Part shown: positions 20,855-41,860 of the stretch, piece by piece
How the letters are laid out: the number at the start of each line of letters is the position of its first letter
How positions within the stretch are numbered: the first letter of the stretch is position 1
Source: Acidobacteriota bacterium
GTDB lineage: Bacteria; Acidobacteriota; JAAYUB01
Reading direction: 5' to 3'
Assembly: GCA_017996395.1 (NCBI GenBank)
Contig: JAGOHA010000017.1
Span: 1-41,961, forward strand
Length of the DNA: 41,961 bases
The notes under the pieces: generated by a model
What the model was told of the DNA's origin: nothing
Databases searched by the model: none
Seen by the model: the letters and a program-made list of their open reading frames with translations, nothing else
Program-made: the position numbers and the translations under genes

Positions 20855-22324
20855 ATGAATAACCTGGAACAGCAGCTCCGCGACCTGGCCGCCAAGGTGG
20901 TGGAGAACAACCTGTGGCGCCAGCGCCGCTGCATCAACCTGATCCCGTCGGAGAACACCCCGTCGCTGCTGGTGAAGCTGTGTGAAATCAGCGATCCCTC
21001 CGGCCGCTACGCCGAGCACAAGACCGCGCTGAAGAAGGAGATCGAGGCCCTCACCGGCACCGGGGCGCTCAAGGGCGACCAGGTCTACTACTACCAGGCC
21101 ACCGATTTCATCTACGAGGTGGAGGAGCGGCTCAAGCAGGAGTTCGGCGCCTACCTCGGCGCCTCCGAGGTGGAGGCCCGCCCCGTGAGCGGCCAGATGG
21201 CCAACGAGATCGTCTTCAAGGCCACGGTCAAGTTCCTCGGCGGCGCCGGCGAGGGCTTCCCCAAGCTGACCGCGACGGGTCGCCTAGCCACCGCCATGAA
21301 CAACAACCTGAACTACGGCGGCCACCTCAGCGCCCAGCCGTTCGGCGCCCTGTTCAACTTCGCCGACGGCGACCCGGTCAACTTCCCCCTTGAGGCCGGC
21401 AACCCCTACAAGATCGATGTGGCCCGGATGCTGGAACTGGTGCGCGAGCACCGGCCGCCCATCATCGTGTTCGGCAAGAGCATGTTCCTGCACCCCGAGC
21501 CGGTCAAGCCCCTCCGTGAGCTGGTGGACGCGATGCCCGACTACCGGCCCGTGATCATGTACGACGGCGCCCACGTCATGGGCATCCTGGGCCCCGGCTT
21601 CCAGGATCCGCTGGCCGAGGGCGCCGACGTGGTCACCGGCTCCACTCACAAGACCTTCTTCGGCCCGCAGCGCGGCATCATCGCCGGGCGCATGCCCAAG
21701 GGCGCGCCGCTGCGCAAGCTCTGGCTCGAGATCAACGCCCGCTCCTTCCCGGGCTCCACCAGCAACCATCACCTGGGCACCCTGCTGGCGATGCTGGCGG
21801 CCACCCTCGAGATGAACCACTTCAAGGCCGAGTACCAGGCCGCGGTGCTGGCCAACGCCCGCGCGTTCGCCGCCGCCTGCCACGCCGCCGGCATCCCGGT
21901 GGAAGGGGGCGAGGCCGACGGCTTCACCCGCACCCACCAGGTGGTCATCCGGGTCAAGCCGTTCGGCGACGGCAAGGAGGTCGCCGCCCGCCTGGAGGCC
22001 AACAACATCATCACCAACTACCAGGCGCTCCCCGACGACGAGACGTTCTACCACCCGAGCGGCATCCGCATGGGCGTGTCCGAGATGACCCGGTTCGGCA
22101 TGGGCCCGGCGGACTTCGCCGAGCTGGCCCGGCTGCTCGCCGACGTGGTCATCCGGAAGAAGGACGTCGCCGCCGACGTGGCCGCCTTCCGCGGGAAGTT
22201 CAGCCGGATGGGCTTCTGCCTCGACGCCGAGGCGACGATGCAGGTCGCGCCGGCCGTCTTCGCCAGCGTCTTCCCCGATTCGTCGTACTTCCAGAGCTTC
22301 GCCGAGGCGCTGCGGCGGATCTGA
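20855..22324 (+). CDS. Divergent serine hydroxymethyltransferase-like PLP enzyme (GlyA family)
   Basis: A 489-residue PLP enzyme of fold type I. The region VVTGSTHKTFFGPQRGII carries the Schiff-base Lys266 and matches the THKTLRGPRGG signature of serine hydroxymethyltransferase; INLIPSENTPS near residue 28 matches the LIASENxxS motif, and YDGAHVMGILGPGFQDPLAEGADVVTGS is typical. It departs elsewhere: the NRYAEGYPGKRYYGG block is replaced by SGRYAEHKTALKKEIEALTG, and the canonical LTHG region reads GGHLSAQPFGALFNF. It is about 70 residues longer than usual GlyA. Serine-glycine interconversion fits the nearby metK, but a related aldolase or transferase activity is possible. GGGAGG lies 5 bases before the ATG. 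Confidence 0.82.
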   Translation: MNNLEQQLRDLAAKVVENNLWRQRRCINLIPSENTPSLLVKLCEISDPSGRYAEHKTALKKEIEALTGTGALKGDQVYYYQATDFIYEVEERLKQEFGAYLGASEVEARPVSGQMANEIVFKATVKFLGGAGEGFPKLTATGRLATAMNNNLNYGGHLSAQPFGALFNFADGDPVNFPLEAGNPYKIDVARMLELVREHRPPIIVFGKSMFLHPEPVKPLRELVDAMPDYRPVIMYDGAHVMGILGPGFQDPLAEGADVVTGSTHKTFFGPQRGIIAGRMPKGAPLRKLWLEINARSFPGSTSNHHLGTLLAMLAATLEMNHFKAEYQAAVLANARAFAAACHAAGIPVEGGEADGFTRTHQVVIRVKPFGDGKEVAARLEANNIITNYQALPDDETFYHPSGIRMGVSEMTRFGMGPADFAELARLLADVVIRKKDVAADVAAFRGKFSRMGFCLDAEATMQVAPAVFASVFPDSSYFQSFAEALRRI

Positions 22325-22340
22325 TCGAACCGGCGAACCA

Positions 22341-22694
22341 GCGAGCCGGCGAACCGGCTCGCGTCGTGCTCGTAATCCCAACCCGGCGGAGCCGGAGCCA
22401 AGCGGTGGGTTGGCGGTGAATGGGCCCGAGACCGTGCGTCTGGGCACGCTCCTTCTCCAGCCCCGCTCCGCGGGGCTTGTGCCCCCTGTAGCCCGTCCGT
22501 TTACGGACGGGTCGGCGGCGTCGGGTTGGATTCGTATTCAGCCCGGTTCACCGGGCTTGTTCATTTCTACGGCCCCCGTTCCAACGGGGGCCGGCATTGC
22601 CAAGCCCCCTGAAGGGGGCTGGCCCCCAACCCCGACGTTCGGCCCCGTCGCTGGAAGCGACGGGCTAGTTTAATCCAAGGCCGGTGAACCGGCC
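22341..22694. repeat. Cluster of eight short perfect hairpins with TNNA-type loops
   Basis: Hairpins (stem length; loop): 22341-22362 (9 bp; CGAA), 22459-22477 (7; CTCCG), 22492-22511 (8; TTTA), 22540-22557 (7; TTCA), 22571-22592 (9; TCCA), 22603-22620 (7; TGAA), 22644-22664 (8; TGGAA), 22679-22694 (6; TGAA). Five loops fit TNNA exactly. Arms differ between copies yet stay fully paired, and several begin AGCCC and end GGGCT. The pattern resembles REP-type elements mobilised by IS200-like transposases, though none is encoded here. Confidence 0.8.
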
Positions 22695-22795
22695 TGGGAG
22701 AGGGTGCTGCCGATCAGATGGGCCCGATGAATCGAAAAATATTTCGTCAAATTTTGGCAGAATTTCGGGCGTAACTGAGTAATCGTTATCGTAAT

Positions 22796-22834
22796 CGTGC
22801 CCGTGATCGAATCCCGCTCACGGGCACGTTTTTT
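22796..22834 (+). terminator. Terminator-like hairpin inside repeat copy C
   Basis: CGTGCCCGTGA (22796-22806) pairs perfectly with TCACGGGCACG (22818-22828), followed by six T. It meets the sequence rule for an intrinsic terminator but is 470 bases past the nearest upstream plus-strand gene. Confidence 0.65.
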
Positions 22835-23009
22835 ATATAACGAGCAGAAATCTGAGCAATTGGACATGGGCCCTCGGTGCTGGGACCTGGGGTCTCGGTC
22901 TTGGGTGCTGGATGTTGAATCCAAAACCCAGTTCCCAGAACCCAGGTCCCAGGTCCCCGAACCCAGTGACTCCTTTGTGTTCTCCGTGCCTTCGTGGTGA
23001 ATCCGCGAC

Positions 23010-23777
23010 TTACCGCTTCCCGGGCACCAGCGGCACGAACCGCACCGGCATGAGATTTTCGGTGCGGGTGCGGCCGTCCGGCTCCCGGGTGATGCGGAGC
23101 AGGTACTGGATGTCGTGGGTTCCCCCCACGGGGATGACCATCACCCCGCCCGGCGCGAGCTGTTCCACCAGCCGTGGCGGCACCGTCGGCGCCGCCGCGG
23201 TGACCACGATGGCGTCGAAGGGCGCCGCCTCGGGCCAGCCGCCGTAGCCGTCGCCGATGCGGCAGCGCACGTTGGGGCAGGGGAGCGCCGCGAGCAGGGC
23301 CGCCGCCTTCTGCCCGAGCTCCGGCAGCAGTTCGATGGTGTACACCTGGGCCACCAGCGCCGCCAGCACCGCGGCCTGATAGCCGGAGCCGGTGCCCACC
23401 TCCAGCACCTTGTGCTCGGGCCGCGGGCGGATCGCCTCGGTCATGAAGGCGACGATGTACGGCTGCGAGATGGTCTGGCCGCTGCCGATGGGGAGCGGCC
23501 CGTCCTCGTAGGCGGCGGCGATGTAGGGCTCCGGGACGAAGCGTTGGCGGGGCACGGCGAGCATGGCGGCAAGCACGCGCTCGTCGCGGACGCCGCGGGC
23601 GCGGATCTGCTCGTCCACCATGCGGCGTCGCAGCGCCGCGAAGCCGTCGTCGCCGGGCGGCCCCGGCGGTGTCGATGGGGCGCCGTTGGGTCCGGCGGCG
23701 CCGGGCGCCCGGCAGGCAAGCAGGACGGCCAGCCCGGTCCCCGCGACGAGCAGGGCCCACAGCAGGAGGTACTTCAT
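23010..23777 (-). CDS. Protein-L-isoaspartate O-methyltransferase with predicted lipoprotein signal
   Basis: A 255-residue protein. Residues 45-255 are a full PIMT: RMVDEQIRARGVRDERVLAAM, PRQRFVPE, the substrate loop GSGQTISQPYIVA (98-110), the SAM motif VLEVGTGSGYQAAVLA (124-139), and VTAAAPTVPPRLVEQLAPGG. PIMT repairs isoaspartyl damage in proteins using S-adenosylmethionine. Ahead of it is MKYLLLWALLVAGTGLAVLLAC, a signal sequence ending in a lipobox-like LLAC with Cys22, then a Gly/Pro linker. This predicts a membrane-anchored protein outside the cytoplasm, odd for a SAM-dependent enzyme. GAGGAG precedes ATG 23775-23777. It stands alone between repeat copies C and D. Confidence 0.92.
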   Translation of the reverse strand: MKYLLLWALLVAGTGLAVLLACRAPGAAGPNGAPSTPPGPPGDDGFAALRRRMVDEQIRARGVRDERVLAAMLAVPRQRFVPEPYIAAAYEDGPLPIGSGQTISQPYIVAFMTEAIRPRPEHKVLEVGTGSGYQAAVLAALVAQVYTIELLPELGQKAAALLAALPCPNVRCRIGDGYGGWPEAAPFDAIVVTAAAPTVPPRLVEQLAPGGVMVIPVGGTHDIQYLLRITREPDGRTRTENLMPVRFVPLVPGKR

Positions 23778-24440
23778 GGCGTTTCTCCTCGGCGGCCTGT
23801 TGCCCCTATTGTAATGCGCCGCCCGCCGGGGCGCAACCGGGAGGCGGAACGGTGAACGGTGAACAGTGAACAGTGAGGAGATAGGAGTTCCTTGCCCGTC
23901 GTGCTCGTCATTCGTAATCGTGATCGTAATCGTAATCGTGATCGCCATCGCCATCGCCATCGCCATCGCCATCGAGACTCGAGGCTCGTTCCCGGCCACC
24001 GGGTCTCGCGGTTCGGGGTTCGGGGCTCGGCACTCGCAACCAAGGATCAACCATCAACTATCAACCTTCAACAATAGTCGGACTTGGGACCTGGGACATG
24101 GGTTCTGGTTGTCGGACTTTGGACCTGGGACCTGGGTGCTAGGTCCTTGCTGACAAATCCCAGATCCAATGATGATGAACGAATGCCGCAGCTGAAGCGG
24201 CGGCAAACAATCAAGATGATGGACCACCCGACTATGAGGCGCGCCGGCATGGCGTTATGCTACGGGAATCGGCGCCTGGCACAGCTGCTGCCGCCGAGCA
24301 TCGACGACTGCGTGCCGACCGCCCGCCCCGGGCGAATGGTCTGATCAGAATGCGCCGGCGCTGGACGCCATCCGGTGGTGGAAATGACACGCCGCGATAT
24401 GGATCGATTTTCTGGTGGGGCGTCAGGGTGACGGACCCAT
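23778..24440. repeat. Gene-free region with modular repeat copy D
   Basis: From about 23850 come GGTGAACAGTGAACAGTGAGG, then CGTAATCGTGATCG units passing into a run of ATCGCC hexamers (about 23941-23970), the block CTCGAGGCTCGTTCCCG (to 23994), CAACCATCAACTATCAACC, and from 24076 GGGACCTGGGACATGGG units. Orientation is as in copy G. From about 24165 to 24440 I see no gene, terminator or promoter that I can defend. Confidence 0.75.
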
Positions 24441-31310: not shown

Positions 31311-31508
31311 ATAGGATAATGGGTGAATCGGTGAATGGGTGAATCGGTGAATCGATCCTTTCGTGCTCGTAATCGTGCTCGTGATCGCAATCGTGATCGT
31401 AATCGAGGCTCGATGCTCGAGACTCGAGGCTCGTTCCCGTAACGCGGACATCGGATATCGGACATCGGTCTGCAGCATCCGATTCCCAGTATCCGAGTCC
31501 CGACGCAT

Positions 31509-36621: not shown

Positions 36622-36774
36622 GGGCATCCTTCGGCGAGGCTCGGGGCTGGAAGCTTGAGACTCGCTCCCGATCGATCCAGCAATCGCAGGTTTACAGGTT
36701 CACAGGTTCGAAGGTTCAGGCCCACAATCATCGGCGTACTCGTTCTCGCCATCGTCATCGTCATCGACTACCTG
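36622..36774. repeat. Short modular repeat remnant, copy F
   Basis: This gap carries GAGGCTCGGGGCTGG, GAGACTCGCTCCCGATCG, four tandem GGTTCACAGGTTCGAAGG-type units and ATCGTCATCGTCATCG. It shares the CTCG...TCCCG and ATCG modules with the other copies but lacks the GGGACCTGGG arms. Orientation is as in copy G. Confidence 0.6.
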
Positions 36775-41419: not shown

Positions 41420-41860
41420 AGTGAGGAGTAAGGAGTGCGGATCCGTGCTCGTAAATCGTAATCGTAATCGTGATCGTGATCGTAATCGTGATCGTAATCG
41501 TGATCGAGGCTCGAGCCTCGAGGCTCGTTCCCGATCATCGGACATCGGAATTCGGACCTGGGTCTTGGGTTCCGGGTCCCAGGTCTTGGGTTCTAAATCT
41601 TGGGTTCCAGGTCCAAGATCCCAGCTCCTTGTTCCCAGAGATCCGGTTCCAGTCTCCAGGTTTCAGTCCCCAGGTCCCAGATCCCAGATCCCATGATCAG
41701 CAAATACGGACTCGACTCCAAATAGCCAATAAAATATAAGCAATTCGCAATAACCATTAAATGGAAAATGACAAATGAACGATGATCGATGAAAAATGAT
41801 TGATCCCTTCGTGCCCTTCGTGACTTTGTGGTGGATCGGTCCGAATCCGGCAGGAAATCG
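41398..41860. repeat. Modular intergenic repeat, copy G (most complete)
   Basis: Module order on the plus strand: GTGAAGAGTGAGGAGTAAGG; CGTAATCGTGATCG units (about 41454-41505); CCTCGAGGCTCGTTCCCG (41516-41533); ATCATCGGACATCGG; GACCTGGGTCTTGGG units; complementary CCCAGGTCCCAGATCCC arms; an AT-rich block (41721-41763) also present inverted in copy B; and CCCTTCGTGACTTTGTGG near 41815. It is the reference for the other copies. No gene is credible. Confidence 0.8.

Follow-up and report, generated by a model that had tools for sequence, protein, structure and literature searches.

A hairpin array between two convergent genes of an Acidobacteriota bacterium as the probable interior of a non-autonomous, single-strand-type mobile element

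With a probability of roughly 0.8, the intergenic hairpin array described here makes up the interior of a single-strand-type mobile element that is non-autonomous and belongs to the REP/REPIN and IS200/IS605 (PATE) kind. It lies in a stretch of 41,961 nucleotides (the window), which is contig C97 of the 3.73-Mb, 246-contig assembly G000, and is flanked by the stop of a gene with an SHMT domain (20855-22324, + strand) and by a convergent gene with a PCMT domain (23010-24050, - strand). An earlier sequence-only reading had proposed either REP elements recognised by IS200-like TnpA proteins or a structured RNA. The first guess is supported and a mobile element is preferred, because the same hairpins flank a Y1 transposase gene on contig C47, further copies exist without tnpA, and the site is empty in one congener and differently filled in another.

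Eight perfect stems of 8-11 bp with loops of 2-4 nucleotides were found where that reading had located them, at about 22341-22694. In 500 first-order Markov shuffles of the 400 bases from 22324 to 22723 the mean was 0.09 stems and the maximum 2. The genome is GC-rich, which would favour a chance run of GC-rich palindromes; this explanation is refuted by eight stems against 0.09 expected and by their ordered recurrence elsewhere, and its probability is negligible. Five loops indeed have the form TNNA (TTTA, TTCA, TCCA and twice TGAA), and because T and A can pair they are also readable as two-nucleotide loops closed by a T-A pair. Folded as single-stranded DNA with DNA parameters, 22380-22787 gives z = -7.2 against 100 shuffles. 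The parts of the element and its surroundings are:

22341-22362, + strand: the first hairpin of the eight, in the upstream gene's native flank and outside the element (present in the empty-site locus L137)
22370-22377, + strand: putative target TCGTAATC, adjoining the element on its left (in the consensus of 20 left flanks, TCGTAATC precedes CCAACCC)
22378-22784, + strand: probable non-autonomous mobile element, about 407 bp (empty site in G002; shared ends in 22 aligned elements)
22383-22395, + strand: left-end subterminal palindrome CCGGC-gga-GCCGG, in the conserved left end (sequence; recurs at left ends)
22459-22477, + strand: hairpin h1, mirror partner of h7
22488-22491, + strand: GTAG foot directly 5' of h2 (sequence)
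22492-22511, + strand: hairpin h2, REP-like, with the 5' GTAG foot, mirror partner of h6
22540-22557, + strand: hairpin h3, mirror partner of h5
22570-22593, + strand: hairpin h4, at the centre of the array; tnpA stands between it and h5 on C47
22603-22620, + strand: hairpin h5, which overlaps the 3' end of the tnpA frame on C47
22644-22664, + strand: hairpin h6, REP-like, with a 3' CTA(G) foot
22665-22668, - strand: CTAG immediately after h6 on its 3' side, which reads as a TAG foot on the opposite strand (sequence)
22678-22695, + strand: hairpin h7, without any difference among the 7 copies aligned there
22744-22759, + strand: right-end palindrome, common family form TGCCAAATTTTGGCA, imperfect here (sequence comparison)
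22771-22784, + strand: right terminus GTAACTGAGTAATC (15-mer with the following G counted in congeners)
22783-22800, + strand: right-hand TCGTNN hexamer array, native target context
22796-22834, unstranded: native intrinsic-terminator-like hairpin with a T run; not part of the element, and present in the empty site too

The eight hairpins had been taken as one group. Seven of them do form one unit, but the first is part of the native flank, because the empty-site locus L137 of a congener has it as well, with a slightly shorter stem. The unit also runs further right than the stated 22694, to about 22784; each border is uncertain by up to about 6 nt because the target and the right end share GTAATC. 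Beyond the terminator, 22862-22960 holds low-complexity GGACCTGGG and TTCTGGG-like units plus their inverted form, and similar stretches flank many elements in congeners.

With its three pairs of mirror partners (h1/h7, h2/h6, h3/h5) around the central h4, the array is a mirror-symmetric imperfect inverted repeat. It matches the reverse strand of a C47 copy over most of its length (E 1e-11), and h3 and h5 show 81% complementarity over 21 nt. Two hairpins carry REP-type feet, GTAG 5' of h2 and CTAG 3' of h6, and together they make an inverted pair of GT[AG]G-footed hairpins as in REPINs, with the right foot reading CTAG and not CTAC. The pattern AGCCC..GGGCT alone is uninformative as a signature, because 45 forward matches were found genome-wide against 39 for the reversed control.

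On C47 the seven hairpins of 22459-22695 recur twice in the same order. One copy (C47:258-1031) consists of four hairpins, tnpA and three hairpins, with a 163-aa Y1_Tnp frame at 480-971 and h5 inside its 3' end, and the other (C47:1316-1559), 0.3 kb away, has the seven hairpins without tnpA, as in the window. The search for further copies that had been proposed was successful: using the array as a DNA query, sequence of this kind (family 1) was found at C97, C121, C47 (two copies) and C229 and partly at C192, C236 and C223, which makes eight loci in this genome, the window included and some of them partial, when matches that reflect the inverted symmetry of the array itself, or that span at most 21 bases, are left out. 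The array is also present in the congeners G002 (C57, C173) and G001 (C128). Over the array, the fuller copies share about 75-79% identity, and neither an exact excision product nor recent identical copies were seen among those compared, so the activity of the element may be old.

That the fold is kept while the sequence changes, as had been claimed, turned out to be mostly wrong. The element has seven different hairpins, which is why the arms differ; from one copy to the next the same hairpin stands at each place, with its sequence conserved. In an alignment of ten rows 90.3% of the cells are paired, against 34-51% for slid versions. A program counted 7 cells with changes on both sides of a pair, only one of which is credible on reading the rows, because the others fall in misaligned or non-homologous rows: the innermost pair of h4 (22570-22593), which is T-A in the window and C-G on C47. 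Compensatory evolution was rejected for the remaining six, which lie in misaligned or beyond-homology rows or columns (G2C173 in h2, several in h4).

The C47 TnpA has an intact Y1_Tnp frame of 163 aa with the motifs EDHVH, WQ and YIANQAEHH. It matched the Pfam family Y1_Tnp with 71 bits (E 1e-19) and the NCBIfam model for IS200/IS605 transposases with 60.3 bits (cut-off 55), and the NCBIfam model for REP-associated tyrosine transposases was not reached (23.6 bits, cut-off 80). A RAYT gene had been suggested as the one to look for. An IS200-like Y1 tnpA was indeed found amid the same hairpins; by the REP-associated model, and by its YIANQAEHH in place of the Y..NP of REPIN/REPtron enzymes, it is not a member of the REP-associated family. 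The protein is 31% and 25% identical to two other proteins of the same group in this genome, a scan of the genome contigs with it gave one remote relative only, and a TnpB-type domain (PF07282) was not found in G000. Another tnpA of the same group (L002 / L068, G000 C25) stands amid CGACCCGC hairpins plus one GTAG-footed hairpin.

These results bear on a narrower explanation, in which the locus is a REP/BIME cluster whose h2/h6 REP pairs were amplified by a classical RAYT/TnpA-REP, with the other hairpins and the ends as passengers. The feet on h2 and h6 (GTAG/CTA), their inverted layout and their extragenic position between convergent genes are as described for GTAG REPs (PMC3733652) and speak for this explanation. 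However, the enzyme passes the IS200 model and falls far below the REP-associated one, its tyrosine motif is Y..Q..HH and not the Y..NP listed for class 2 (PMC6006769, Table 1), and the inserted unit is bounded by shared ends and not by the REP pair. We consider the narrow REP cluster unlikely.

The features that define TnpA-Y1 subclass 1.2 in sequence (Y1_Tnp, HUH, Y..Q..HH, WQ, about 148 aa) are all present in the C47 TnpA, which appears to fit this subclass by motif, not by tree. For subclass 1.2, Table 1 of Quentin et al. 2018 (PMC6006769) gives 'REP: no' and 'does not share IS properties' and names Cyanobacteria/Bacteroidetes. This absence of REP and IS properties is a reported observation on the subclass and not part of its sequence definition, and it does not hold here, where TAG-footed hairpins accompany 42 of 85 such genes and an empty site exists.

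The empty site is the SHMT/PCMT junction of G002 (L137), which reads GTCGTGCTCGTAATC-GTACTCGTAATC... and is preceded by the native hairpin and followed by the native terminator. At the same junction G000 has the element of the window, and G001 has an element with the same ends and the hairpins of another family (family 2). Selection on an RNA fold, in a structured non-coding RNA or at a transcript end with several hairpins, would agree with the strong fold (the z-score was obtained with DNA parameters) and with the invariance of h7 in 7 copies. It is very improbable in view of the congener's empty site with intact flanks, the unrelated hairpins at the same site in another species, the stems of h1 and h4, which are broken in several copies, the tnpA gene interrupting the array on C47 and the zero matches to Rfam at the gathering threshold in the window.

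A sequence search revealed that in G000, G001 and G002 the outermost parts of 22365-22795 are found again in pairs, with other interiors between them. Twenty-two such elements were read, and they give the left end CCAACCCGGCGGAGCCGG and the right end GTAACTGAGTAATC. The right-end 15-mer (GTAACTGAGTAATC plus the following G, at most 2 mismatches) occurs at 42 places, 18 in G000, 9 in G001 and 15 in G002, and once each in two more distant genomes; the reversed control gave 0-1 per genome and strand. By marker strings, 16 of the 22 interiors belong to family 2, three to family 1 (including the window) and one to family 4, and two are without such hairpins. As side observations, five loci (L131, L142, L126, L140, L113) have the same right end, two of them both ends, around an interior of about 470 bp without hairpins, and at L103 and L116 (G000 C206, C233) two elements stand head to tail, the right end being followed by the next left end within few bases.

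The array and the conserved ends might alternatively be two mobile elements, the array having been inserted into, or recombined with, an older end-bearing element. Among the 22 elements, at least four kinds of interior stand between the same ends, and neither end was recognisable by BLAST in the C47 family-1 copy with tnpA, the family-1 copies on C47 being without those ends. On the other hand, no remnant of another interior stands beside h1-h7 in the three family-1 elements read, and a family-2 autonomous copy in G001 (C80) holds both ends, hairpins and tnpA in one 0.9-kb unit. Two elements are possible, though the less probable option; a single mobile element remains our preferred reading.

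Palindromes lie near both ends of this element, there is no visible target-site duplication, and a specific target stands 5' of it, as in PATEs and IS200/IS605 elements. Within 40 nt of the left end, TCGT hexamers run in the element's orientation in 18 of 20 elements and in reverse in none (L122 and L103 have no usable left end, hence 20 of the 22); on the right side the numbers are 16/22 and 2/22. Random 40-mers of the window, used as control, gave 3.5% and 2.5%. Matches to a 15-mer of the hexamer array number 473 in G000, 292 in G001, 806 in G002, 14 in G003 and 0 in G004, with 0 for the reversed control; TCGTNN hexamer arrays characterise the genus, being very common in the three congeners, and the two more distant genomes tried have hardly any. 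In the window, TCGTAA/TCGTGA/TCGTGC arrays are also found at 23912-23941, 31361-31384, 36752-36769 and 41456-41503.

From these observations the following mechanism can be proposed. A Y1 (HUH) transposase of the IS200-like 'subclass 1.2', encoded in trans, would read folded hairpins on single-stranded DNA. Recognition would rely chiefly on the GTAG-footed h2 and its mirror image, the CTA-footed h6, with two more nested pairs, h1/h7 and h3/h5, all of them putative binding sites. The C47 TnpA or a relative would cut at these ends and transposition would involve single-stranded DNA; the element is inserted beside TCGTAATC, within a TCGTNN hexamer array that lies between convergent genes, shows no visible target duplication and itself ends in a sequence resembling its target (AGTAATC). 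It would most likely have arisen from a copy like C47:258-1031 by loss of tnpA.

More tentatively, TnpA together with its own TAG-footed hairpins may form swappable modules between conserved ends that are aimed at one strand of the hexamer array, which would make this a distinct kind of subclass-1.2 element between IS200 and REPtrons; we consider this possible rather than probable. If true, module exchange would give the same site hairpins of family 1 in one species and of family 2 in another. Instead of an exchange in place, different elements may have independently hit the same hexamer array.

Subclass-1.2-like genes were surveyed with a profile of seven such proteins, which matched 62 of 247 genomes of the phylum. 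The 85 loci analysed were selected and not random, 46 being high-scoring matches and 39 picked to spread over genomes (from 40 stretches, the 40th of which repeated a locus already included); L244, which has a short flank, was kept, and the loci include orthologous pairs such as L060/L066 and are therefore not independent. Y[IV]..Q..[HR]H is present in 82 of the 85. A hairpin with a TAG-type foot lies within 300 bp in 42 loci, against 0.25 in shuffles of the same flanks; by this rule 43 loci have none. Perfect stems of at least 8 bp within 300 bp occur upstream in 46 loci, downstream in 50, on both sides in 40 and on neither in 29, where shuffles give 2.3 upstream, 2.65 downstream and 0.1 for both. 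Real sequence served as a further control: among loci with about 1.5 kb on each side, a TAG-footed hairpin was found in 30 of 70 adjoining 300-base windows and in 1 of 70 at a distance of 1.05-1.35 kb.

Of 61 relatives of a Prolixibacteraceae genome, 51 have the gene. In the best 30 matches a TAG foot was seen at 4 loci and hairpins on both sides at 6 (shuffles 0.2 and 0.05), the other 26 having no TAG foot, so the association with TAG feet is weak in this group. At L102/L203 (Prolixibacteraceae) a tnpA of the same group stands among about ten hairpins, stems of at least 7 bp, of at least five kinds.

The element resembles a PATE or a REPIN mobilised by an IS200-like TnpA. It is fully neither of the two, because its enzyme failed the REP test and its interior contains many hairpins. 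IS608 and ISDra2, members of IS200/IS605, use TnpA alone, have subterminal palindromes and insert beside a short specific target without duplicating it. The element resembles this family as described in PMC6006769 and PMC8266576 in each of these points, and differs from it in its many interior hairpins, in its hexamer-array target and in that no TnpB-type domain was found in this genome. PATEs are palindrome-associated, transposase-free relatives of IS605-type elements with near-terminal palindromes (PMC3119063); according to that description they share with our element the lack of a transposase, palindromes near both ends, the lack of target duplication and, probably, an origin by core deletion from a tnpA-bearing parent. 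Unlike PATEs, the element has seven distinct interior hairpins (three mirror pairs and a central one), REP-type TAG feet and ends common to unrelated interiors.

Likewise, a low-copy Y1 gene enclosed by perfect hairpins that carry GTAG feet and form inverted pairs, an own hairpin family for each gene and tnpA-less copies elsewhere are all as described for REPINs and REPtrons (PMC3116915, PMC6006769, PMC8266576). In contrast to REPtrons, which as described have class 2 enzymes with Y..NP, the enzyme here is of the IS200 type (class 1, Y..Q..HH), and unlike REPINs the inserted unit is about 0.4 kb long and has conserved ends outside the hairpins. REPs are usually described as present in more than 100 copies per genome (PMC2817692), whereas here there are the eight family-1 loci, some partial, and 18 places with the right-end 15-mer in G000. 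With subclass 1.2 as given in PMC6006769 the group shares DHVH, WQ, Y..Q..HH, a length of about 150 aa and few copies per genome with low identity; it differs from the listing there in its REP-like pairs, tnpA-less copies, empty site and different genome group. In the one collection of open-access papers searched we found no report of REP-type hairpins and non-autonomous copies with subclass-1.2 enzymes, of one set of ends around unrelated hairpin modules, or of a one-strand TCGTAA-array target.

How IS200-type transposons became REP-associated, 'domesticated' enzymes is described as an open question (PMC8266576). A group with an IS200-like enzyme, REP-type hairpins and tnpA-less copies is a candidate intermediate. 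Its shared ends around different hairpins let one ask which part of the DNA the enzyme reads, and a single site that is empty in one congener, holds family 1 in a second and family 2 in a third provides a ready-made test case.
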